NCBI GenBank assembly: GCA_028280065.1
Contig: JANQMN010000069.1
Span: forward strand, 29,424-93,423
Source of the DNA: Hahella sp.
Lineage (GTDB): Bacteria > Pseudomonadota > Gammaproteobacteria > Pseudomonadales > Oleiphilaceae
Reading direction: 5' to 3'
Length of the DNA: 64,000 nucleotides
The notes beneath the pieces were generated by a model that made no database searches, had not been told where the DNA came from, and was given only the letters and a program-made list of their open reading frames with translations. Shown here in pieces: positions 22,022 through 55,269 of this stretch. A program made the position numbers and the translations under genes. The number at the start of each line of letters is the position of its first letter. Position 1 is the stretch's first letter.

Positions 22022-25000
22022 ATGGACTTTGATCGAATATTAAGCTTGGACTTAGAACTCAGCAGAGATGGTAATCGCCTCCACCATCTGGGGGCCGTTC
22101 TGGGCTCGCGTAAACTGGACCTGACTAGTCCGACGGCAACGCAGATGGCGGCGCTCCAGCGCTTGGCTGAGGATGCCGATGTCTTGTTGGGACATAACAT
22201 TCTGGAACATGATTTACCCTGGCTGGCGGAACATGGGTATTATTCCGGCAGGCTGGCGGAGTTGCCTGTTGTCGATACCTTATACTTGTCGCCCTTGGCT
22301 TTCCCGAAGAATCCTTATCACCGTTTGGTGAAAGACTATAAATTGGTAAAGGATAGTTTTAACAATCCGGTGGCAGATGCGCGTCTGGCACTTAGAGTCT
22401 TTGAGGATCAACGGGCGGCGTTCGCACTTCAGTTTCAGGAAAACTCGCATTTGATCCGGGTGTATCATCGGTTATTAGGCAAGGAACAAGACACCCGAGC
22501 ACTTTTGGCGGCGCTCCCGGAGCACTGCGATTCCGAACCTGGAGCTGATTTGCCGGACCTGGTCCAACGCAGCGCGGTGGCGGAATGCTGCCAAAACCAA
22601 CTGCGATCCCTGTTGGAAAGCGCCGAAGATACCGCATATTCCCCTATCTGCCTGGCTTATGCTTTGGCCTGGCTTCAGGTAGCCGGTGGAAATTCGGTTC
22701 TGCCTCCTTGGGTATGGCGCAGATACCCACAGGTGAAACGCATAATCGAACTGATTCGGGAACAACCTTGTGGCCAAAGCGATTGTACCTACTGTCGGCA
22801 AAATTTTGACACCAAGGGCTTCTTGAATCGCTATTTCGAAATGCCCGATTTCCGCCAGCTACCCGACGGCACGCCATTACAGAGACAGCTGGTTGATGCC
22901 GGCGTCAGGGGCAGGTCGTTATTGGGCATACTGCCCACGGGTGGCGGTAAATCGCTCTGTTATCAGTTACCGGCGCTCATACGAAACAGGCGGAATAGCT
23001 CGCTGACCATCGTGATTTCGCCGCTGCAGGCTTTAATGAAGGATCAGGTCGATGGTCTGAAGAATAAAGCGGGCATTGAAGGCGTGGCCGCTTTATCCGG
23101 GATGCTTACCATGCCTGAACGGCAAGCCGTGCTGGAAGAGGTGAGAATGGGGGATATCGGTATTTTGTATCTCTCGCCGGAACAGCTCAGGAACCGGAGA
23201 GTAAAAAAGGTACTGCAAAGCCGTCAAATCAGCGGTTGGGTTTATGATGAGGCGCATTGCCTTTCCAAGTGGGGGCACGATTTCCGGCCGGACTATCTCC
23301 ACTGCGCCAATGTCATCGCTGCGATAGCCAAGCAGCAAGCCGAGCAACCACCGCCGGTTTTTTGCTTTACGGCGACCGCAAGGCTGGATGTTATTAAGGA
23401 TATTTGTTCCCATTTTAAGCAAAAACTCAATATCGAGTTGGAACGTTTCGAAGGTGGCGTTGAACGTGACAACTTAATTTACGAGGTGGTTGAAACCCAG
23501 GCCCATAGTAAAACCGCCCGCATCTTACAGCTGCTCGACGATTTTTTCGGCAACGACCAGCCGGGTAGCTGCGTTATTTATAGCAGTTCGCGAAAAGGGG
23601 TTGAGAAGCTGGCGGCCGCCTTGACAAGCAATCAACCGCTGCCGGTCGCTTGGTTTCATGCCGGCTTGGATCCACCCAAAAAGCGCGAAATTCTGGAAGC
23701 ATTTATCGCGGGGCAATATCGCATTATTGTCGCGACAAATGCCTTTGGGATGGGAATTGACAAAGACGATGTGCGCTTGGTGATCCATTGTGACATTCCA
23801 GGTTCTCTGGAAAACTATCTCCAGGAAGCCGGCAGGGCCGGTCGCGACCGGCAACTGGCCCATTGCGTTTTGCTATTCGATCAGCAGGATGTGGAACAAG
23901 AATTCAGGAAGGCCAAGCAAAGTGAAGTGCGGCTGAAGGATATCGCGGAACTGTTGAAGGAAATCCGTTACCGCGCCAAGTATGCCGATGGACGTGTAGT
24001 TGCAACGGCCAAAGAACTACTGCGATCCGAGTATGTCGAAACTGATATCAGCCTTGAAGACAATAATGCGGACACCAAAGTTAAAACTGCCATTGCCTGG
24101 CTGGAAAAAGAAGGATTCTTAAGCAGGGAAGACAATGTCACCTCCGTGTTTCAGGGCAAACCGCTTTTTGCTGATTTAAAGGAAGCCCGGCGAAAACTCA
24201 ATGGTTTGCAGTTGTCCAGGGTGGAGAGACAGCGCTGGGAGGTAATTCTGGAAGCGTTGCTGAGCGCCAAAATAGATGAGGGACTCAGTGCCGACGATAT
24301 TTTGGATAAGGTCGCGGGGCAGCTAAAACAAGCGCCGGATAAAACCGACTATTCCCCCGAGAACATAATGAAAACGCTCTCGCAAATGGCGCAATGCGGA
24401 TTGCTGAGCCGGGGGTTCTCGATGACTGCCTACTTGCGCCCAAAAGGCAGAAACAGTAGCCGCAGTGTCGCCGAAATAGTGGTAGCCATTGAAAATAGGC
24501 TGCTTCAGTGGCTGCCCGAAATTGCGCCCTATGAGGGAAGCGATACTCTCCATCAAGTGGACATCAGAGCGATAAATTCCAAGTTGCAGGCGGATTTTCA
24601 ACTGCCTTCAACCACCAGGCTGGTTCGTATCGTATTCAGAAACTGGGCGGAAGACGGCAAAACTTCCGGCACCGTCGGTTCTCTGCAATTTAGCAGTCGC
24701 GGCAAGGAATTGTTTACTATTCGTCTACAACGCCCTTGGTCCGAAATCAGGGAAATCGCCGAGCAAAGACAGACGTTTACCGTGCAGGTGTTGAATTTCC
24801 TTTATTCCAGGTTGACGCCCGAAGTCGCAAATCTGCAGAAAAAAGTCCTGGTGGAATTTACCTTGGAAGATGCCGTTTCCAAGTTGAAGGAAGATGCGCT
24901 AATTCGTCTGCAGCTGGCAGACAAGCATCAGATCCAGGCCCAGGAATTTTTACTGAAAGGCATCCAGCGCGTGTTAATTTTCCTGGATAGTTGCAAGGCC

Positions 25001-27178
25001 GTTGAGTTGCAAAATGGTATGGCGGTATTTAAGCAAGCCATGGAAATACGGGTCTCTAAAGGAAACAATCGGCGTTACCTGCAAGCGAATTATCGGCCGC
25101 TTAAAGAACATTATTCACAACGGATCGTACAAGTGCATGTGATGCATGAATATGCCCGGCTTGGGGCTGAACAAATCAAAGCCGCGCTGGACCTTGTGCA
25201 GGACTATTTCGTCAAGTTAAACAAGGCGTTTATCCGCCAGTATTTCCCTCGACAGAAAGGCATGTTGGAACGGGCGACAAGCCAGGAAAGCTGGGACGAT
25301 ATTGTCACCTCGTTGAACAATCCTCACCAACAAGCGGTGGTATGTGCCAAAAGCGATAAAAATCAACTGGTTTTAGCCGGTCCTGGCGCAGGCAAAAGCA
25401 AAGTCATTATCCACCGTATTGCCTACTTGATGCGTGTCGAGCAAGTAGCGGCCGGGAAAATTCTTGCGCTGACCTACAATCACAATGCGGCGGTTAGTCT
25501 TCATAAAAGACTGGTCGGATTACTGGGCAAGGATGCTTACTTTTTAAGAGTGCATACATTTCATGGCTTGGCACTGCGATTATTAGGGCGCAACGTTGAG
25601 CCTGACAAATCCGCAAACCTGGATTTTGACCGCCTAATTGAGGATGCAACACGCTTGCTAAGTGCGGAGCAATTGGAAACCGGCTTGGATGAACATAACC
25701 AAAGGGCCGTCTTGCTCGGCGGTATCGAGCATATTCTGGTAGACGAGTATCAGGATATAAATGCGGAGCAATATGCATTGATTGCCGCACTGGCCGGTAA
25801 AAACACCTCGGACGAAGATGACCGGCTCAGTTTGCTGGCCGTGGGAGACGACGATCAATCGATCTACCAGTTCCGACGGGCAAACGTTAAATACATTCAT
25901 CAGTTTCAACAGGACTATCAGGCCGATGTCAGCTTTCTGACCCAAAATTACCGTTCAACGGCAAATATCATCAGTGCGGCCAACAGCCTGATTGCGCACA
26001 ACCGGGATCGGATGAAGACCCAACATCCAATCGAGATAAACCAGGAGCGCCGCTTAGAGCTGCCAGGAGGAAAGCGGGAAGGGTTCGATCCACATCACAA
26101 AGGCAGGGTCAAGCTGGTTGAGTGTATCAACCTGCACCAACAGGCACAGGAAGTTTGCGAGCAGATCAAGGAGATCCTCCGGCGCGATAAGGAGGCCGGC
26201 TATGCCGACATAGCAATACTCGCGAGAAGTGGGATTGATAAGCCTGCGCTGTTGAGTATTCGGGCGTGCCTCCATAAACAGGACATCCCCTATAGCTTCT
26301 CAAGGACCGACGGCGAGTCTTTTCCGCTCCATGGCGTGCGGGAAATAGCCGCTTTTCGGGACTTTCTGCGGGACCGGTCGCAATCTCTATTAAGCACGGA
26401 GGCACTGCGAGCCTGGCTGCCGGAAGAGCGTAACCACTGGCATCAGTTAATCGCCAGTGTCATTGACGATTGGCAAGATCAATTTGGCAAGGACCCTGTC
26501 GAAGTAATTTTCTTTCAGCGCCAATTAAACGAGTTTTTGCTGGAACAGCGCCGCCAAACCAGAGTCGGCGCCGGGATTGTTTTGAGCACAGTCCACGGCG
26601 TTAAAGGGGAGGAGTTCAAATATGTAATGGTGGCGGATGGCAGCTGGCGCTTTACCTATGCCGATGCCGCCCATTGTGAAGAAGAACGGCGTCTCTACTA
26701 CGTGGCCATGACCAGAGCAATCGAGCAGTTGGTGTTGTTTCGTATCCAAAACGCCGACAATCCTCACCTGGCAGTGCTGGATAACAACGTGATTTCCGGC
26801 GATTTCAGCAAATGCCAGCGCCACTTAGAAGGCATGACCAGATTTCACACAGTCGGACTACCGATGTTATATCTCAGTTTTGCCGGCAGGTACCCCCAAG
26901 GGCACAAGGTGCATCATTGCCTCGATTGGCTCAATACAGGCGATCGGGTAGAAATAGCGCGGCAGTCAAGGGGAAGTATTTCGATTGTTAAGGACGGAGT
27001 TGAAATTGCCAGGCTCTCCAAGAAAGGCATTGATGAACTGGGTAATGAAATAGGCCAGGGCCGACCAGCGACAGTTATTGCGATGGTGAAAAGACTTAAG
27101 GAAGCCGACAGCGATTACAGCGAATCCTTAAAAGTGGAAAACTGGTGGCTGCCGGTGGTCGAATTTACCGTCTGCTAG
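22022..27178 (+). CDS. DEDD exonuclease-RecQ helicase-UvrD helicase fusion protein
   Basis: A 1718-residue DNA-processing protein with three modules. Residues 1-130 form an RNase H-fold DEDD 3'-5' exonuclease: D10 and E12 (LDLELS), D64 (GHNILEHDLPW) and D119 (NPVADARLA), although the usual His before the last Asp is missing. A Cys cluster (CGQSDCTYC) precedes a RecQ-type SF2 helicase: Walker A PTGGGKS near 305, DEAH near 410, QEAGRAGRDRQ near 602. After a linker comes an SF1 UvrD/Rep helicase: GPGAGKS near 1120, DEYQD near 1241, VGDDDQSIYQFRRA near 1273, STVHGVKGEEF near 1523. Its 3' end overlaps the convergent GGDEF gene by 4 bp. A role in repair or phage defence is inferred. Confidence 0.9.
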   Translation: MDFDRILSLDLELSRDGNRLHHLGAVLGSRKLDLTSPTATQMAALQRLAEDADVLLGHNILEHDLPWLAEHGYYSGRLAELPVVDTLYLSPLAFPKNPYHRLVKDYKLVKDSFNNPVADARLALRVFEDQRAAFALQFQENSHLIRVYHRLLGKEQDTRALLAALPEHCDSEPGADLPDLVQRSAVAECCQNQLRSLLESAEDTAYSPICLAYALAWLQVAGGNSVLPPWVWRRYPQVKRIIELIREQPCGQSDCTYCRQNFDTKGFLNRYFEMPDFRQLPDGTPLQRQLVDAGVRGRSLLGILPTGGGKSLCYQLPALIRNRRNSSLTIVISPLQALMKDQVDGLKNKAGIEGVAALSGMLTMPERQAVLEEVRMGDIGILYLSPEQLRNRRVKKVLQSRQISGWVYDEAHCLSKWGHDFRPDYLHCANVIAAIAKQQAEQPPPVFCFTATARLDVIKDICSHFKQKLNIELERFEGGVERDNLIYEVVETQAHSKTARILQLLDDFFGNDQPGSCVIYSSSRKGVEKLAAALTSNQPLPVAWFHAGLDPPKKREILEAFIAGQYRIIVATNAFGMGIDKDDVRLVIHCDIPGSLENYLQEAGRAGRDRQLAHCVLLFDQQDVEQEFRKAKQSEVRLKDIAELLKEIRYRAKYADGRVVATAKELLRSEYVETDISLEDNNADTKVKTAIAWLEKEGFLSREDNVTSVFQGKPLFADLKEARRKLNGLQLSRVERQRWEVILEALLSAKIDEGLSADDILDKVAGQLKQAPDKTDYSPENIMKTLSQMAQCGLLSRGFSMTAYLRPKGRNSSRSVAEIVVAIENRLLQWLPEIAPYEGSDTLHQVDIRAINSKLQADFQLPSTTRLVRIVFRNWAEDGKTSGTVGSLQFSSRGKELFTIRLQRPWSEIREIAEQRQTFTVQVLNFLYSRLTPEVANLQKKVLVEFTLEDAVSKLKEDALIRLQLADKHQIQAQEFLLKGIQRVLIFLDSCKAVELQNGMAVFKQAMEIRVSKGNNRRYLQANYRPLKEHYSQRIVQVHVMHEYARLGAEQIKAALDLVQDYFVKLNKAFIRQYFPRQKGMLERATSQESWDDIVTSLNNPHQQAVVCAKSDKNQLVLAGPGAGKSKVIIHRIAYLMRVEQVAAGKILALTYNHNAAVSLHKRLVGLLGKDAYFLRVHTFHGLALRLLGRNVEPDKSANLDFDRLIEDATRLLSAEQLETGLDEHNQRAVLLGGIEHILVDEYQDINAEQYALIAALAGKNTSDEDDRLSLLAVGDDDQSIYQFRRANVKYIHQFQQDYQADVSFLTQNYRSTANIISAANSLIAHNRDRMKTQHPIEINQERRLELPGGKREGFDPHHKGRVKLVECINLHQQAQEVCEQIKEILRRDKEAGYADIAILARSGIDKPALLSIRACLHKQDIPYSFSRTDGESFPLHGVREIAAFRDFLRDRSQSLLSTEALRAWLPEERNHWHQLIASVIDDWQDQFGKDPVEVIFFQRQLNEFLLEQRRQTRVGAGIVLSTVHGVKGEEFKYVMVADGSWRFTYADAAHCEEERRLYYVAMTRAIEQLVLFRIQNADNPHLAVLDNNVISGDFSKCQRHLEGMTRFHTVGLPMLYLSFAGRYPQGHKVHHCLDWLNTGDRVEIARQSRGSISIVKDGVEIARLSKKGIDELGNEIGQGRPATVIAMVKRLKEADSDYSESLKVENWWLPVVEFTVC

Positions 27179-28134
27179 TTTTTCTGTCTGTCCGCGAGCC
27201 CTAGATCTTCTATTTTGGGTGTCAGTTCAACCTGCTTAATACAGAGTCGATTGCGGCTATCGCGCTTGCCGGCATAGAGCAGATCGTCGGCAATCTTCAG
27301 CGATTGCGCCACTTTTTCTCCTGCTTGCGGTACACATACGCAGGCCCCGATCGTGATGGTTACCACCGGCGCTGCCGACGATTGGTTATGCTCGATATTC
27401 AGATCTTCCACGCCTTTTCGACAGGATTCCAGGATATGCCGTGAGCCTTCCAGATCGGTTTCCGGCAAAATGATACAGAATTCCTCGCCGCCGTACCTGC
27501 AGACCAGGTCACGCGGACGTTTCAGCTTCACTTCGAGAATATTTGCAATGCGCCGTAACACCTGATCGCCGGCGGCATGGCCGTAATGATCGTTATACAG
27601 TTTGAAGTGGTCCACATCGACCATGGCAATGGCTAACGGGTGCCCGGTGCGATTTGAATTGGACCATTCGATATTGAGTTTTTGCTCCATCTGGCGCCGG
27701 TTCGGTATGGCGGTGAGGGAGTCCAAATTCGCCAGCTCCTCCAGCATGCGCCGTTGCTTTGCCAGTTCCAGGTGGGTAAATACCCGGGCTTTGACAATCT
27801 CCGCATGAAAGGGTTTGTGAATATAATCGCAAGCGCCCAGTCGCAGGCCTCGAGCTTCATCGTGGTGAGAGTCCAGGGCGGTAATAAACATTACCGGGAT
27901 GTTCTTGGTTTCATCGTCGCGTTTGAGCTGTTCGAGGACCTTAAAGCCGTCCATGTCCGGCATGATGATATCCATCAATATTAGCGTCGGGTTCTGGCGG
28001 CGCGCCAGATCCAGTGATTGCAGGCCATTTTTGGCCAAAACGATCTTGCCTTGCGACTTCAGAAGATCGTAGAGAATTTTTCGATTGGATTTTTCATCAT
28101 CCACAATCAGGATAATGGGTCTTTCAATCTGCAT
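27175..28134 (-). CDS. Response regulator with diguanylate cyclase (REC-GGDEF)
   Basis: A 319-residue c-di-GMP synthase under receiver control. The REC domain (1-120) has phospho-acceptor D55 in LILMDIIMPDMDG. The GGDEF domain (about 130-305) has an intact active site GGEEF near 214-218 and an RxxD inhibitory site (RPRD) five residues before it, so it should be active and feedback-inhibited. It starts 38 bp after the stop of the giant hybrid kinase on the same strand and is the obvious phosphorelay output of that kinase's Hpt domain. Confidence 0.92.
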   Translation of the reverse strand: MQIERPIILIVDDEKSNRKILYDLLKSQGKIVLAKNGLQSLDLARRQNPTLILMDIIMPDMDGFKVLEQLKRDDETKNIPVMFITALDSHHDEARGLRLGACDYIHKPFHAEIVKARVFTHLELAKQRRMLEELANLDSLTAIPNRRQMEQKLNIEWSNSNRTGHPLAIAMVDVDHFKLYNDHYGHAAGDQVLRRIANILEVKLKRPRDLVCRYGGEEFCIILPETDLEGSRHILESCRKGVEDLNIEHNQSSAAPVVTITIGACVCVPQAGEKVAQSLKIADDLLYAGKRDSRNRLCIKQVELTPKIEDLGLADRQKN

Positions 28135-39274: not shown

Positions 39275-40576
39275 TTATGTGATGTCGCCGCCGATACGTT
39301 CGATTTCATTCAGGTCCTGCCAGAGCGTTGGTTCATGAAAGCAGATAGCACCGCCGCCCCGTTTTTCCTGGGAGGTCATGCGGTTTAAGTCCGCCACGCA
39401 GACCCAGGCGGCGTCGGTGCCGCTTTCGGTATCCACTTCACGGACGCCACGTTCCTCGGGTTTTTCCGATAACGCCCACTTGGAATGATCATGGGTGTAA
39501 GCCCAGGTGTAACCTTGCAACGACTGGCCTTGGCTGTCATTTAACATGGCCAGGTCGAGATTTGTGATTTCATCCTCGTCATGTTGACCGTCACCTTCGA
39601 CAAACTCATGATGGTAAAGCGTATCCTTGTGTTTATTCACACTGTCATCCTGGCCATATTCCGCATTGCCCGAACTATCAACATTTTCAGGGAGTGTGGC
39701 GGAGGCAGTCAGACGCCGCCAGGTTTCTACCCGAAGGTCGGTATCTAGTTTGGGTCCCACCAAATTTATCCAGAAGTCATCATGCCAAGCGCCACTTTTG
39801 GCAATAAGTCGAAATGACTTGCCGGCTTGGGAGCTAAACTCGATGTCGGCAGGGTCGCGTTTGCCGTGCTTGGCGATGTAACTGGAGGAATACGAAGGGG
39901 GTTCGATACCCTGAGCGAGCCGCCATAGGTCCGGCCACTTTGAATTTTGGGTGACTGTTGAGGGAAGCCGGCAACCAAATACCTGGGGTTCGTGTTGGGT
40001 CGACAGGACCTCGGCGATACGATTGGCGGTTGCTACATCCTTGAGGCTGATGCAGATGAATGTTTGGGCGTAGGTGTAAGCGTACTCGGGGTAGAAGTAG
40101 TCTTCGTCGTTTTCCAGGTGCAGGCCGGGAATTCGCGGAGTGGAATGGGATAACCAGAAGGCAGTATCCGTAGCCAGATCGAATGCCAGCGTGCCCTTAC
40201 AATGGCCGTTATGGCTGTTATCTATCGGATGTCCCCGGTCCTTTTCCCGCGCGTTCTCGCTATAATATTTGGGTGGTCTGTTCGGAGGCCAGTCCTCGCG
40301 TTGTAATGAATAGGGGTATTCATCGTTATAGTGAATCCAGCCGATAGATTCGGAGTTGTCTGTCAACAACTGCACCATCGTATGGTAAAGCGCACCCTTG
40401 GCAGCGGTTCCTAAGGTATTGCTGGATAGAGCAAGTGTCCTCTGCTTGTCGCCGTCATAGTAAAGATATTCATTACCCTTTGTCTTCTTGCCAGTAGGGC
40501 CGGAGTCTTTGGGAAGTTTATACATAAACCACCAGTCGGTGGCATCACCAGTTTGATCGTTTTTTGCAGATAACAT
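39275..40576 (-). CDS. Deoxyribonuclease II family nuclease
   Basis: A 433-residue homologue of eukaryotic acid DNase II (phospholipase D-like HxK fold). Diagnostic blocks are DWWFMYKLP at the N-terminus, GHCKGTLAFD with H125 and K127, AFWLSHSTPRIPG, DHSKWALS with H364 and K366, and CVADLNRMTSQEKRGGGAIC near the end. Both catalytic HxK motifs are present. DNase II cuts DNA without metal, leaving 3'-phosphates. Unlike the animal enzymes there is no signal peptide: the start ATG has AAGGA 5 bp upstream and leads straight into the domain. It is first in the gene train running down to the GGDEF regulator. Confidence 0.88.
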   Translation of the reverse strand: MLSAKNDQTGDATDWWFMYKLPKDSGPTGKKTKGNEYLYYDGDKQRTLALSSNTLGTAAKGALYHTMVQLLTDNSESIGWIHYNDEYPYSLQREDWPPNRPPKYYSENAREKDRGHPIDNSHNGHCKGTLAFDLATDTAFWLSHSTPRIPGLHLENDEDYFYPEYAYTYAQTFICISLKDVATANRIAEVLSTQHEPQVFGCRLPSTVTQNSKWPDLWRLAQGIEPPSYSSSYIAKHGKRDPADIEFSSQAGKSFRLIAKSGAWHDDFWINLVGPKLDTDLRVETWRRLTASATLPENVDSSGNAEYGQDDSVNKHKDTLYHHEFVEGDGQHDEDEITNLDLAMLNDSQGQSLQGYTWAYTHDHSKWALSEKPEERGVREVDTESGTDAAWVCVADLNRMTSQEKRGGGAICFHEPTLWQDLNEIERIGGDIT

Positions 40577-41638: not shown

Positions 41639-42193
41639 TTACTCCAATTCAATCCAGCATGCGAACAATGGGTAGCCATTGATGATTTTTGGCGGGCCGG
41701 CACGATGTGCTTTGAAGCCGGCTTTTCTGAGAAGACGTTCAACTCCCAGGGGAGAAACGCTGATCATTCTCTTTGCGCCATGTTCCTGGGCACAGCGGAT
41801 AGCGGCTTTGAGTAGATCGACGCTATGTTCGGCAGAAAACTGTGCGTTGGTTGGGCTGGTTTCAGCTTGCAAATCGAGAGACGTGAATCTTGATAATTCC
41901 CAAATCTCGGCGGATTTAGGCGGTTTCAGTCCATTCAATAATTCTGGAAACACTTCTTCCAGTAAATACGGCAGGGTTGTTGGCAGAAGTCTGGCACAAC
42001 CGGTAATCTGACTGTCTTCGTTCCGCGCCACCACATAGATGGTTTCGGAATGATCGAACTGGTCTGACTCGTAGCCGTTCTCGGTATCGAGATCCCAGCC
42101 CAGTCGATCAACAAATACTTCGTATCGGTAGGTAAAAAGTTCGCATCTTGCCTGATTTGAGAGTCCTTGCGATGTATGTGACTTATAGTTCAC
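41639..42193 (-). CDS. luxI: LuxI-family acyl-homoserine-lactone synthase
   Basis: A 184-residue autoinducer synthase that makes an N-acyl-homoserine lactone from SAM and acyl-ACP. The conserved residues are present: RYEVFVDRLGW, E/D-rich YESDQFD, GCARLLPTTLPYLL and IWELSRF with the invariant Arg and Glu positions. A LuxR-box-like site (CTGTTAAGTTTGACAG) lies 65 bp before the start, suggesting positive feedback. The gene follows a DUF4902 gene and a divergent luxR. The acyl chain length cannot be predicted. Confidence 0.92.
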   Translation of the reverse strand: MNYKSHTSQGLSNQARCELFTYRYEVFVDRLGWDLDTENGYESDQFDHSETIYVVARNEDSQITGCARLLPTTLPYLLEEVFPELLNGLKPPKSAEIWELSRFTSLDLQAETSPTNAQFSAEHSVDLLKAAIRCAQEHGAKRMISVSPLGVERLLRKAGFKAHRAGPPKIINGYPLFACWIELE

Positions 42194-42257
42194 GCGGCAC
42201 CCCCATAAAAATGTTTCGTCAGGGGCTATTAACTAAAATTTAACGAACCCGTTGTAG

Positions 42258-42273
42258 CTGTTAAGTTTGACAG
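42258..42273. promoter_or_regulatory. Lux box upstream of luxI
   Basis: CTGTTAAGTTTGACAG fits the CT-N12-AG form with CTGT/ACAG half-sites. It lies 65-80 bp upstream of luxI and overlaps the 42278 end region of the preceding gene only at its edge. Confidence 0.6.
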
Positions 42274-42277
42274 GTGG

Positions 42278-42709
42278 CTATGCGTACTTGTTTGTGATAT
42301 GCGCCGAAATTTGGTCGCCCCAGCATAACTGGCCGACTAAAACAGACAGATACTTCATGCAGGTATCGGGTTCCAAATCTCGTTCGTACCGGTCCAAAAG
42401 AACGACATTGCTAAATGGGTGACCGACCATTTTGTATCGGGGCGGGATATCGTATCCGTCGAATTCCCAGTCCCATCCGATGGAAATTGCCGGTTCCGTT
42501 TCACTGATCCATTCCGTATAGCCGTTCATTTTGCAGACGCGGTTACTGGTCGTATCCGCTTCCGGCTCGTCGGCATAGACTCCCGAGTCCAGGTGTTTTA
42601 GTTTGACAGCATCCAGCTCAAGACTGGATAAACGAACATATCCGTCATCGGACAGGCGAAGCTTCGGTTGGTGCATTGTAAGTTCCTGGTTCACTTGGTT
42701 TTCCTCCAT
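42278..42709 (-). CDS. DUF4902/RsaM-like protein of a quorum-sensing locus
   Basis: A 143-residue protein lying between luxI and luxR. Its features (RLSSLELDAVKLKHLDSGVY, NGYTEWISETEPAISIGWDW) match the DUF4902 proteins commonly found in lux loci, which include or resemble the RsaM regulators that tune AHL output. The assignment is from memory of the family. An inner ATG at 42676 has a better Shine-Dalgarno (CAGGAACTTACAATG), so the first 11 residues may not be translated. Divergent from luxR with an 89-bp shared region containing a lux-box-like site. Confidence 0.72.
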   Translation of the reverse strand: MEENQVNQELTMHQPKLRLSDDGYVRLSSLELDAVKLKHLDSGVYADEPEADTTSNRVCKMNGYTEWISETEPAISIGWDWEFDGYDIPPRYKMVGHPFSNVVLLDRYERDLEPDTCMKYLSVLVGQLCWGDQISAHITNKYA

Positions 42710-42753
42710 TGGCTATAATGGTGTATTGTAAACACTTGTCGGCATGTTGGTGA

Positions 42754-42769
42754 TTGATAAATCTGACAG
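42754..42769. promoter_or_regulatory. Second lux-box-like site in the luxR/DUF4902 divergent region
   Basis: TTGATAAATCTGACAG matches the luxI box at 12 of 16 positions and keeps the TGACAG half-site. It lies 30 bp before luxR and 45 bp before the DUF4902 gene. Confidence 0.45.
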
Positions 42770-42798
42770 GTATATGAAAGGCCAAGAGGCTGGTCAAA

Positions 42799-43509
42799 AT
42801 GGAACAGTGGATTGAAGAACAACTTCATCTATTGCTGAATGTGTCGTCGAAAGATGAGCTCTTCTCCGGTTTAACCAAGGCAGCGCGACTCCTGGAGTTC
42901 GACTACTTTGCCTACGGTCTGCGCATTAATATGCCGGTGACCTCGCCGAAGATTGAAATGCTGAATAACTACCCCGAACAGTGGCAGCAGCAGTATTCCG
43001 CGCAAAATTATGTGGCAATCGACCCCACCGTTAAACACGGCTCTCAAAGCTTGAGGCCGGTTGTTTGGTCGGAAGAACTCTTCTCAAATACGCCGAACCT
43101 GTGGGAGGAAGCTTCCTCCTTCGGGTTGCGCTTCGGTTGGGCGCAGTCTACCCATAGCTTACCGGGAATATCGGGAATGATGACCCTGGCGCGATCTGCA
43201 AGCGACCTGAATGAATTGGAACTCACAGCCAAATCGGCCTTGATGGTATGGTTCACTCAAATTGCGCATATTGGCTTGCAGGACATTTTACTACCTGAAA
43301 TGCTGCCGGAGCTAAACGTTAATCTCACACTGCGGGAAATGGAAATTTTACGATGGACAGCAGACGGTAAAACCTCGAATGAAGTTTCCGTGATTTTGGG
43401 GATTGCCGAGCGAACGGTGAATTTCCACCTCAATAATGCGATGTCCAAACTCAACGTCATCAATAAAACCGCGGCTGTCGTAAAGGCTGTGCAGTTGGGG
43501 ATAATCTAG
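42799..43509 (+). CDS. luxR: LuxR-family AHL-responsive transcriptional regulator
   Basis: A 236-residue quorum-sensing receptor. The autoinducer-binding domain (1-160) contains FDYFAYGLRI, YPEQWQQQYSAQNYVAIDP and RPVVWSEELF, giving the conserved Trp, Tyr, Asp, Pro and Trp residues. The C-terminal helix-turn-helix includes LTLREMEILRWTADGKTSNE and TVNFHLNNAMSKLNV, then the usual NKTAAVVKAVQLGII end. It is divergent from the DUF4902-luxI pair and very likely binds the two lux-box sites. A hairpin (43527-43548) follows the stop. Confidence 0.92.
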   Translation: MEQWIEEQLHLLLNVSSKDELFSGLTKAARLLEFDYFAYGLRINMPVTSPKIEMLNNYPEQWQQQYSAQNYVAIDPTVKHGSQSLRPVVWSEELFSNTPNLWEEASSFGLRFGWAQSTHSLPGISGMMTLARSASDLNELELTAKSALMVWFTQIAHIGLQDILLPEMLPELNVNLTLREMEILRWTADGKTSNEVSVILGIAERTVNFHLNNAMSKLNVINKTAAVVKAVQLGII

Positions 43510-52015: not shown

Positions 52016-52833
52016 CCGTTTATTCCATTTAATGTCAAAACGATTGCGCCAGCAGTCAAAATAAATGCGGCAGTTCCCACTCCTTCATGCCACCAACTCA
52101 TGGGTAACTCGACTAATCCGCTTTCCAAATGAAACAAACTACTGGCTCTCAGCACATTTCCGAGTAAAACCAATAGACAGCAGGCGAACAAGCCGATGCT
52201 TAAGCGCAGTACTTCCATTCTACTCACAAAGGCAATTACCAGGGTTAAGAACAAACCCGCCCAAAGCATGGTGATACCGCTGCATGGCCCGTCGAATAGC
52301 AGCATTTCGTTTTGCCAGACTAAGTAAGTGCCTTCCTGGCTGACCTGCATTCCATTCATCTTTAACAGGGGTACAGTCAGGCTGGCAGATAGCAGGCGGG
52401 AGGGGTAGCCAAGATAAAACTGCAACGACGGAAGCACAGGCAAAGCGAGTAACACCATACCCCAAAATCCCGCAGGAGGAGGCCGTCCAAAGGCGGCGAA
52501 ATACAAGGTAAGTAAGATGGCTGAAACAGCAATCGCAGCGCGAATGATCGAGGGTGCAAACAGATAGGAGATACCATAGAGCACCATAAGTAACGCAATA
52601 GGAATGACTGGAAAGTAAAAGATTTGCCTATTCTTGCGGATAGCTTGCCAGGCCAAGGCAAGAATCAATGCGAACGCCACCAACAGGGCTACCGCTTCTT
52701 CAGGTGAGTGCCAAGTGCGGTGTAGGTACCACACCCAGGCAGGCCAAAAAGCGACGATCTGAAGACCCATGACGAGAATCAGACGGGCTAGGCTATGCCG
52801 GTTAATCGGTGACGGTGTTGCCGTAAATACCAT
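51985..52833 (-). CDS. Exosortase family transpeptidase-like protein
   Basis: Polytopic membrane protein (about eight helices) of the exosortase/archaeosortase superfamily. Catalytic residues are in LLFDGPCSGITMLWAGL (Cys), GNVLRASSLFHLESG (Arg) and SWWHEGVGTAAF (His), the expected order. It would recognise and process a PEP-CTERM-like tail; the only candidate target nearby is the VIT/VWA protein encoded just upstream. The start at 52833 is preferred over 52869 to reduce overlap with that gene. The subtype is not certain; it may belong with exosortases dedicated to VIT proteins. Confidence 0.86.
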   Translation of the reverse strand: MVFTATPSPINRHSLARLILVMGLQIVAFWPAWVWYLHRTWHSPEEAVALLVAFALILALAWQAIRKNRQIFYFPVIPIALLMVLYGISYLFAPSIIRAAIAVSAILLTLYFAAFGRPPPAGFWGMVLLALPVLPSLQFYLGYPSRLLSASLTVPLLKMNGMQVSQEGTYLVWQNEMLLFDGPCSGITMLWAGLFLTLVIAFVSRMEVLRLSIGLFACCLLVLLGNVLRASSLFHLESGLVELPMSWWHEGVGTAAFILTAGAIVLTLNGINGWGKAKSTHV

Positions 52834-55160
52834 AGGATCAACGCCAAGATGACAAAAAGTAATAGCCATTGATGCGGTTCGGGGATAGTCGGCACAGAAC
52901 CGGCTTCCACAGGTGTCAGGTCGTTTTCCTCATACTGCGCCTGGCTTTCCAGGACAACCGCTCCACTTACAGGGGTAACCAATTGATGCCGGGCTGCGAT
53001 TTCGATGGCACGATCCGTATTGCCTTTTTTATCTTCGGTAATGAGGGATAAGACCTGAGTTTTTGCCCATAACCTGACGATATGCGCAGAACCTCGTTCA
53101 ATTTCGCTGCCCGGACTCCCTTTAAACCGCTTCCACTGATAACCTGGGTGAGTCGAAAATAGTGAGTCGAAATAGTCGGCCAGGTCTTTTTCAACCATGC
53201 CTAGATAGGGCAGTGCTTTCGCTTGCCAGCTCCAGTCTGCGTTATCCATCAGCAGATTCGGACCCAACCCGATACCATACAGGACTATTTTTGGCGTGCG
53301 TGAGAGTCTGGTCATTGCCTGGTCCAGTTTCGCTTGGCTGGCAGTAAAAGCAACCGGCTGAGGAGCATGTACCCAAAGTAACTCTGTTTGAGAGTAGGAT
53401 TCCAGAGCGTGCAACGCATCCGTCAATGCGTGCCCGCTATCTTGGCCACCGGCGAAATCCGTTGCTTCAATTAACTGCTTAAATTGCGCTTTGCGTTTTT
53501 CTGTCCAGGCGCCAATGGTAATAGACGCAGGTGCTTCACTGGCGATGATCAGCCCTATCTGTGTTCCATCGGGAATGCGGTCTAGAGCGGCAACGATAGC
53601 GTCTAGGTACCTGTGCATCTTTGCCGAGCCGTCAATCACCAGCATCAATGCTTCTGGGGGCGTTTGTTCCTCCATCACTAACTGTTGAATAATCGCTTCC
53701 CCAGGTTCTAACTCAGACCAGGATCTGAGTCGTGTTTCATCTTGATCGACCCAAATACTTTTTCTGGAAATCGTCAGGTCCATATCTGAAAGACTGCCCT
53801 GAATTCTGTAGAGCTGTTGGTCGCTTAGATGTTTTGTCGTGACACCGGATAGGTCTGATCGGAGGCTTTGATGGGCTTCGATCCATATTTCGTGCTGTAG
53901 CTTTCGGTCGATGTTGAAGTTGCGGTTTTCAATTGCGGGGAGTATCAGTTGGGCGCTGTCTTTACCGATGAGTTTTAGTGGTGCGGTCATCCCTAGTCGG
54001 AATTTGATCAGGCCGCCGTTCGGCAGGATGGGAAATGCCTGGGCAAGAATCCTGTCTGTTCCCTGGGTAGTGACCAACAGCGGATCTCTGCGCCTTTGTA
54101 CGATGCTTTGGTATGCCTGGCGAACTTGTCTGCGCCCTGCAAAAGCCGCCTCGCTTTCCTCGCCGTTGATCCATAAGGTGGCACGGGACACGACAGCATC
54201 CGGCGGCAATGAAATTTGCAGTCTGGCTTCTCGTTGTCGGTATGAATCGTTACGGAACTCAAACGTCCACTCCAGATAGGCAATGCCGTCATCACTATTC
54301 ACAGAGCCATCCAAACGGGAAGACACCAGGTTTAATCCTTTCAATCTTCCACCCACCTGCGTCCCGCCTTGATCCGCATCGAAGTTCATATCCTCGAACT
54401 GTCTCCAAGCCCGTCCTGCATGGGGAATGGGTTGCAGATTAAAAGGCTCACCGGTAACACGATAGAATATCTCCCTCACTTTTGACGGGTGCGTCGAGCC
54501 TCTATCTTGTAGAAATATAAGGGCAAAACTCAGCGGCCCGGTGGCTTGCCCGTGCCGGTCGTAACAGTGACGAAGCAACAGCTCCTCGTCTCCCCAGCGC
54601 CGCAACAACTCAATACCGCGTCGACTGGTTGTTTGATTGTCGCTGGCTGCCAGGGTGATTCCCCATTTCGTTGCCGCAGTGGGTAGATCCAAAATGACAA
54701 AGGCAAACAGTGCGATTAACAATCCGTGCCAGAGTTTGGTTTTACTTGTGCTTGAATCCTGAGAGACCAGATTTCGATAGAGTTTGATAGTGACGAATAA
54801 AACGATAAGCGGCGCAAGGGAAAGAAATCCCATGCCGAAGATGACAATCGCCATTACAGAGATTGGTGTTAAAGGCAAAAACAGTATCGCATAGAATCCC
54901 GCGATACCAATTGAAATGGCAGACGATAAGATTAACCAGCGCGTGTCGGTAAATCTTTTTTCACGCAGCTGAATCCACAGAAGGCAGTTGGATAGAGGAA
55001 CAAGAAGTACGAGTAAGACATGCCAAATAGTCGGGATCGGGTCAAAAAACGTTTCGGCGCACATACGACTATAGAGTTCAAAGCCGATAACGCCTGCGGG
55101 GTAAATGACACCCAAAAAGAGTAAGACCCAGCCCGGTTTGCGTGTTTTTTTGGTTTCCAT
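52788..55160 (-). CDS. VIT/VWA-domain membrane protein with PEP-CTERM-like sorting tail
   Basis: A protein of about 790 residues. Four N-terminal membrane helices (to about 180) are followed by a vault/inter-alpha-trypsin VIT domain (AFAGRRQVRQAYQSIVQRRR, then DPLLVTTQGTDRILAQAFP) and a von Willebrand A-like domain (ALMLVIDGSAKMHRYLDAIV; the MIDAS is DGSAK, lacking the second Ser). The C-terminus reads VPTIPEPHQWLLLFVILALI then WYLRQHRHR: a PEP motif, one helix and a basic end. This is the form of an exosortase target. The exosortase gene overlaps its 3' end. Confidence 0.85.
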   Translation of the reverse strand: METKKTRKPGWVLLFLGVIYPAGVIGFELYSRMCAETFFDPIPTIWHVLLVLLVPLSNCLLWIQLREKRFTDTRWLILSSAISIGIAGFYAILFLPLTPISVMAIVIFGMGFLSLAPLIVLFVTIKLYRNLVSQDSSTSKTKLWHGLLIALFAFVILDLPTAATKWGITLAASDNQTTSRRGIELLRRWGDEELLLRHCYDRHGQATGPLSFALIFLQDRGSTHPSKVREIFYRVTGEPFNLQPIPHAGRAWRQFEDMNFDADQGGTQVGGRLKGLNLVSSRLDGSVNSDDGIAYLEWTFEFRNDSYRQREARLQISLPPDAVVSRATLWINGEESEAAFAGRRQVRQAYQSIVQRRRDPLLVTTQGTDRILAQAFPILPNGGLIKFRLGMTAPLKLIGKDSAQLILPAIENRNFNIDRKLQHEIWIEAHQSLRSDLSGVTTKHLSDQQLYRIQGSLSDMDLTISRKSIWVDQDETRLRSWSELEPGEAIIQQLVMEEQTPPEALMLVIDGSAKMHRYLDAIVAALDRIPDGTQIGLIIASEAPASITIGAWTEKRKAQFKQLIEATDFAGGQDSGHALTDALHALESYSQTELLWVHAPQPVAFTASQAKLDQAMTRLSRTPKIVLYGIGLGPNLLMDNADWSWQAKALPYLGMVEKDLADYFDSLFSTHPGYQWKRFKGSPGSEIERGSAHIVRLWAKTQVLSLITEDKKGNTDRAIEIAARHQLVTPVSGAVVLESQAQYEENDLTPVEAGSVPTIPEPHQWLLLFVILALILWYLRQHRHRLTGIA

Positions 55161-55269
55161 AGGCTGCAAGGGAATAAGCCAGTCGATCCATTGATAGTAT
55201 AGGTGTAATAGGGCGATGTTATGGATGGATATGACGAATTCTGTTGAATAGAGGCGGTCGGATTATTAC

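Follow-up and report, generated by a model that had tools for sequence, protein, structure and literature searches.

The enzymes of the PLD superfamily work by a covalent phosphohistidine mechanism that relies on two HxK half-sites and requires no metal. The DNase II of Burkholderia thailandensis is reportedly active at acid pH and, to our knowledge, no role is known for the bacterial DNase II enzymes. As a family, DNase II shows an acid optimum, does not need cations and loses activity more than 100-fold as the pH rises (reviewed in PMC7407206). Here we describe DN2, a further member of this known family encoded in a stretch of 64,000 nucleotides of Hahella sp. (contig JANQMN010000069.1, hereafter the window), together with its operon neighbours PART1, LIPO2, ACT and KIN (Table 1). 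What is new, as far as the tools used show, is the PART1/LIPO2 family with its predicted uracil-DNA glycosylase (UDG) fold, its fusion to DNase II and shared operon with it, and the link to the sensor KIN; no paper on any of these was found among the open-licence literature. Compared loci are designated by L-numbers and genomes by G-numbers.

The UDG-fold superfamily has lately been found to include antiphage enzymes that sequence searches had missed. Brig1 and Brig3 are UDG-fold defence glycosylases acting on modified bases (PMC11078745, PMC13160076), so that UDG-fold proteins as obscure as PART1 can be active on such bases. The superfamily membership of Brig1, like that of PART1, was recognised through a predicted structure (Dali Z of 9.2 to the S. 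tokodaii UDG; PMC11078745), and the likeness between the two proteins is at the level of the fold. Brig3 shares an operon with a DNA-acting partner, BapA (PMC13160076), as PART1 does with DN2. In contrast to the Brig systems, PART1 has a nuclease as its partner, the operon includes a sensor kinase and there are exported paralogues.

The explanation that we favour, with a probability of about 0.5, is that DN2 and PART1 constitute a two-component DNA-processing unit under the control of KIN. PART1 would recognise, and perhaps excise, unusual or damaged bases, DN2 would cut the DNA that PART1 handles, and KIN, a sensor kinase with Ser/Thr kinase, AAA_16 and GAF domains, would control when the two proteins are produced or active. 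The predicted UDG fold of PART1, the repeated neighbourhood of both genes and their fusion suggest that the two proteins work on the same DNA; from this we infer physical contact between DN2 and PART1, DNA as the ligand of PART1, base excision and kinase control. The host would probably be spared by the steep loss of DNase II activity above acid pH and by the regulation of the unit, and a direct inhibition of DN2 by PART1 is also possible. The original prediction had guessed that a partner might keep the nuclease inactive, and PART1 is a concrete candidate for it. A recurrent, sometimes fused partner of DNA-glycosylase fold would be the first concrete lead on the purpose of bacterial DNase II.

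DN2 and its predicted location

The Pfam family PF03265 covers residues 7-424 of DN2 (E=3.7e-68; 230.6 bits for a cut-off of 23), with positions 4-318 of the 326 in the profile aligned. This match bears out the family assignment of the original prediction and rules out a chance open reading frame or a wrong family call. The sole PDB match of DN2 in a phmmer search was the B. thailandensis DNase II (5i3e/5unb, E=2.4e-43). Both catalytic pairs that had been proposed are present, GHCKG (H125/K127) and DHSKW (H364/K366), as well as the motif DLNRMTSQEKRGGG; the two pairs are conserved throughout a 23-row alignment, and each of the 33 proteins used for the tree has them as well. DN2 is a genuine DNase II, a PLD-type enzyme with two HxK half-sites, and family membership predicts that it is metal-independent and favours acid pH. 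The PLD-like pseudodimer fold that unites the two HxK pairs is supported by the predicted model of a homologous DNase II domain, that of L035, which superimposes on 5i3e with a Z of 34.9 (rmsd 2.8, 310 residues) and whose next structural matches are PLD4, PLD3 and TDP1.

DN2 shares family, half-sites and fold with the B. thailandensis enzyme. However, it is only about 31-40% identical to a Burkholderia sequence and has insertions that add about 80 residues. The animal DNase II alpha and beta also have the PF03265 domain, with HxK pairs of the DHSK/DHAK type, but they are secretory or lysosomal proteins (PMC4148230, PMC7407206), while DN2 has no export signal. Long, Lys/Ala-rich C-terminal tails that resemble histone H1, and are possibly DNA-binding, are present on the DNase II of L035 (8001-9539), L027, L032, L037 and L038.

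Since the start codon of DN2 lies right at the domain, and the frame stays open for just about 8 further codons upstream, the protein has no signal peptide. The maximum hydrophobicity of its N-terminus is -0.71, versus 1.91 for the neighbouring lipoprotein. A sequencing error that masks a signal peptide is unlikely; the bacterial relatives checked share the same start. The absence of a signal had therefore been correctly read from the DNA, but it is not a special feature of DN2: none of the 23 aligned bacterial relatives has a hydrophobic N-terminus, and DNase II proteins without predicted signal peptide have been described in Burkholderia and, among other organisms, in two poxviruses and one Dictyostelium (PMC4148230). 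Judging from these N-termini, bacterial DNase II appears to be cytoplasmic by rule and the missing signal is unremarkable. A low DNase II activity away from acid pH may suffice as a safeguard for the host.

The PART1/LIPO2 family

PART1 has no match by sequence in Pfam, NCBIfam, PADLOC or a PDB profile search. Its AlphaFold2 model (mean pLDDT 86.7, pTM 0.89) finds the family 4 UDG 1vk2 as best structural match (Z 12.3, 183 of 190 residues, rmsd 3.2), and the 50 structural matches listed are all UDG, UdgX, TDG, SMUG1 or BdiUNG proteins. A second model, that of the L035 fusion, gives a Z of 13.0 to 4zby for the PART1 domain. The similarity to family 4 UDG/UdgX (1vk2, 4zby, 6ail), with Z of about 12-13, extends over nearly the whole UDG domain. 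Foldseek by itself is weak (E=0.005, probability 1.00), and the best local alignment between PART1 and family 4, which is not significant, lies in the expected register (LLxxNGV..ETVVDATP / VIYGAHP / TNHPYRF).

The family signature is (F/L)(H/D/N)(Y/F)PP ... DxxPIAAP ... (Y/F)G(S/A) ... NHP. By our own reading, in which motif A was placed by secondary structure and by eye, these segments fall, respectively, at motif A of the UDGs and the segment that follows it, at the LLLG strand and at the HPS motif. The order of the strand motifs is common to PART1 and the UDGs, with N/S-H-P at the likely position of the UDG motif HPS. This putative motif B reads N/S-H-P-Y in the cytoplasmic branch of the family, but in L022, L041 and one of the L035 copies HM takes the place of HP. 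The HYPP at the motif A position is replaced by DYPP or NYPP in some exported members. LIPO2 is 27% identical to PART1 and its signal marks it as a putative exported branch. PART1 and LIPO2 would thus add to the UDG-fold superfamily an undescribed family that is split into a cytoplasmic and an exported branch. A third gene of this family, 41% identical and of the cytoplasmic type, is located on another contig of the same genome (L053:7643-8821) and has no adjoining DNase II.

Association of DNase II, PART1 and KIN

A PART1 relative adjoins DN2 in the window, in G015 (L002/L057) and in L009, L010 and L011; it lies at a distance of one gene in L032 and of two genes in the Bacteroidota L022 and L041. 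In L035, from a metagenome-assembled genome, a single open reading frame of 942 residues comprises PART1 (46% identical to that of the window) followed by DN2. The existence of this fusion in another bacterium indicates that the pair probably acts together on DNA. PART1 was present in 10 of the 34 genomes with DN2 versus 2 of 273 class genomes sampled regardless of DN2. In a maximum-likelihood tree of 33 proteins the PART1-linked DN2 proteins fall in three separate clades, and at least three changes are required to explain the linkage; the DN2 of the window clusters with L002 and L009-L012 (support 100/100). The order KIN-ACT-PART1-DN2 is kept in G015, which belongs to the same family as Hahella sp., with identities of 60-67%.

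Several observations weigh against a common function of DN2 and PART1 on DNA. PART1 is lacking in 24 of the 34 bacterial genomes with DN2 and occurs in genomes without DN2, and in L054 (6708-10088) a PART1-like domain is fused to a PF04185 phosphoesterase. DNase II is therefore not the sole partner of PART1, and in other genomes DN2 itself has metabolic neighbours. The model of the L035 fusion (pTM 0.58) predicts no interface between DN2 and PART1, and none can be read from it because the linker is disordered. With respect to sequence, PART1 is about 10% identical to family 4 UDG/UdgX, lacks the Fe-S cysteines of family 4 and is extended at the N-terminus by about 75 residues; none of 12 family members has a UDG hit in Pfam, and hhalign comparisons with family 1, GQAPG-type and family 4 UDGs were not significant (P=0.23 for family 4). 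The UDG motif A (such as GQDPY, GEAPG or GINPG) with its polar catalytic residue is not found in PART1, which has HYPP instead of the GEAPG of family 4. Since these usual catalytic residues are missing, PART1 is considered here a predicted UDG-fold protein and is not filed as a glycosylase. Finally, many members of the family are exported, as LIPO2 would be, and cannot have the DNA of the host as their target there.

The fusions also bear on the proposal that a secretion machine could carry DN2 into other cells, PART1 then serving it as immunity or adaptor protein. A signal-less cytoplasmic nuclease followed by a small conserved gene would suit such an effector. However, DN2 has no trafficking domain, no part of a secretion system was recognised among the annotated proteins of the window, and the fusion of PART1 to a nuclease (L035) and to a phosphoesterase (L054) is unlike an immunity protein, all of which makes this proposal very improbable.

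Of the 22 loci with a PART1-family gene that were examined, 9 have a KIN homologue no more than 8 kb from that gene. In six of the nine linked genomes, which were selected for showing the link, the gene concerned is the sole KIN homologue of the genome (E<=1e-30), so that a chance neighbourhood is very unlikely; three homologues are present in the genome of the window and eleven in G015. In three other genomes, too, ACT adjoins PART1 and KIN. PART1, ACT and KIN occur with no nearby DN2 in L079 and L084, and the PART1-PF04185 fusion of L054 adjoins a GGACT gene, a gene for an unknown 260-residue protein and a KIN homologue. Since KIN and PART1 are found without DN2 in the first two loci and with another fused enzyme in the third, DN2 is one effector among several in a wider module of KIN and PART1. 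The triple formed by GGACT, the unknown protein and KIN is also present in L022, L041 and L055.

The outputs of KIN change from one locus to another (histidine kinase, receiver and Hpt domains in the window, adenylate/guanylate cyclase in L022, GGDEF in L055) while the PART1 family stays. This suits a different explanation, in which the UDG fold has been repurposed: PART1 and LIPO2 would bind a small ligand or a protein in KIN signalling, and DN2 would be a loosely attached effector. The non-canonical active-site motifs, the exported members and the two loci with PART1, ACT and KIN in which DN2 is not nearby are also in its favour, but the adjacency of DN2 and PART1 in separate clades and their direct fusion speak for a closer bond, and we regard this explanation as possible but doubtful.

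Returning to a DNA-processing unit of DN2 and PART1, a more destructive form of it can be considered tentatively. A base-excising UDG-fold family would be coupled, and sometimes fused, to a metal-independent DNase II behind a kinase/STAND-type switch, and would destroy DNA in two steps. If true, this system could target DNA with modified bases or serve programmed DNA breakdown. An antiphage unit, which overlaps with the favoured explanation, would have PART1 excising modified phage bases, in the manner of Brig1, Brig2 and Brig3, DN2 cutting at or near the abasic sites and KIN sensing infection. The UDG-superfamily fold common to PART1, Brig1 and Brig3, the presence of a STAND-like AAA_16 sensor beside a nuclease, and the patchy occurrence of the operon are consistent with it; the whole operon stretch was not found in six congeneric genomes, save for kinase cores and short pieces. 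However, PADLOC, run on six window proteins, gave nothing for DN2, PART1, LIPO2 or ACT and only generic kinase or helicase matches for the others, and no defence island was seen around the operon among the annotated proteins. Phage, plasmid and viral-contig collections held no copies except a DN2 on one Burkholderia megaplasmid: DN2 was not found in the viral collections, nor PART1 in phage and plasmid records. The exported paralogues and the metabolic neighbours also fit poorly, and an antiphage role is thus rather unlikely.

Distribution of bacterial DNase II and gene context

DNase II is rare and patchy across bacteria. The original prediction was right about this rarity but its mention of Burkholderia was too narrow: 37 loci from at least six phyla were detected with one genome per species in about 85,000 species, and this count is a lower bound because only two short peptide patterns were used for the scan. 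The phyla are Pseudomonadota, Bacteroidota, Planctomycetota, Acidobacteriota, Myxococcota and Thermodesulfobacteriota; a further locus is in a metagenome-assembled genome labelled Akkermansia, a label that may be wrong. Within the family to which the window belongs, DN2 was present in one other genome among those searched. Genome G129 (L004, L007, L008) carries a decaying DNase II gene with several in-frame stops and frame changes.

The gene neighbours of DNase II differ among these bacteria. In Flavobacterium/Saprospiraceae (L016:1780-11622; L015, L019, L020, L024, L025, L026) it has a conserved place between genes for a xanthine-dehydrogenase-like protein, an unknown 477-residue protein and a PF04185 phosphoesterase. 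In L003 (7131-10073) and L038 (9243-12140) it is followed by a protein of 965-980 residues with a nucleoside phosphorylase-type domain, called "GTPase" in the Burkholderia record. DN2 neighbours PART1 and a sensor kinase, whereas its B. pyrrocinia homologue adjoins a protein with such a phosphorylase domain.

These contexts raise the possibility of nucleic-acid scavenging, in which DN2 would belong to a catabolic set (nuclease, phosphatase, nucleoside phosphorylase and xanthine dehydrogenase) that turns DNA into bases, PART1 being an accessory binder. The Flavobacterium-type loci, where DN2 is grouped with the phosphoesterase, the xanthine-dehydrogenase-like protein and XdhC, and the PNP_UDP_1-domain protein adjoining DN2 in Burkholderia and Acidobacteria agree with this idea. 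However, none of these catabolic enzymes is encoded in the operon of the window. Neither DN2 nor, as far as is visible, the phosphoesterases of L011 and L032 have a signal peptide, so that extracellular DNA would be out of their reach unless there is another route. Scavenging is therefore an improbable role for DN2.

In the window, DN2 and the five genes that follow it apparently form one six-gene transcript, as judged from strand and spacing (Table 1). The match of ACT to PapA5-type acyltransferases is weak (E=0.0046). A promoter scan was uninformative, with fewer sites than in shuffled sequence.

Table 1. Genes of the apparent DN2 operon, with their positions in the window
Gene	Product	Coordinates	Strand	Features
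DN2	DNase II family nuclease, 433 aa	39275..40576	minus	ATG start; PF03265 and HxK pairs
PART1	Undescribed family, predicted UDG-superfamily fold, 386 aa	38102..39262	minus	12 bp downstream of DN2; AAGGAG ribosome-binding site before ATG
LIPO2	PART1 paralogue with lipoprotein-type signal, 538 aa	36446..38062	minus	LTAC lipobox; 22 Cys
ACT	PapA5-type CoA acyltransferase-like protein, 445 aa	35006..36343	minus	HxxxD motif SHEYIDAR
KIN	Sensor, 2241 aa	28173..34898	minus	Ser/Thr kinase, AAA_16, GAF, HisKA/HATPase, two receiver domains and Hpt
	Response regulator with GGDEF (diguanylate cyclase) domain	27175..28134	minus	Last gene of the apparent operon

Immediately upstream of these genes (41639-43509), an autoinducer synthase of the LuxI type and a regulator of the LuxR type are encoded, and because of this position the operon might be controlled by quorum sensing. 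Two other proteins of the window can be mentioned. The region 22022-27178 encodes a protein of 1718 residues in which a DEAD/Helicase_C helicase (RecQ- or DpdF-like) is joined to a UvrD-type helicase, and 52788-55169 encodes one of 793 residues with a VIT (vault inter-alpha-trypsin) domain.
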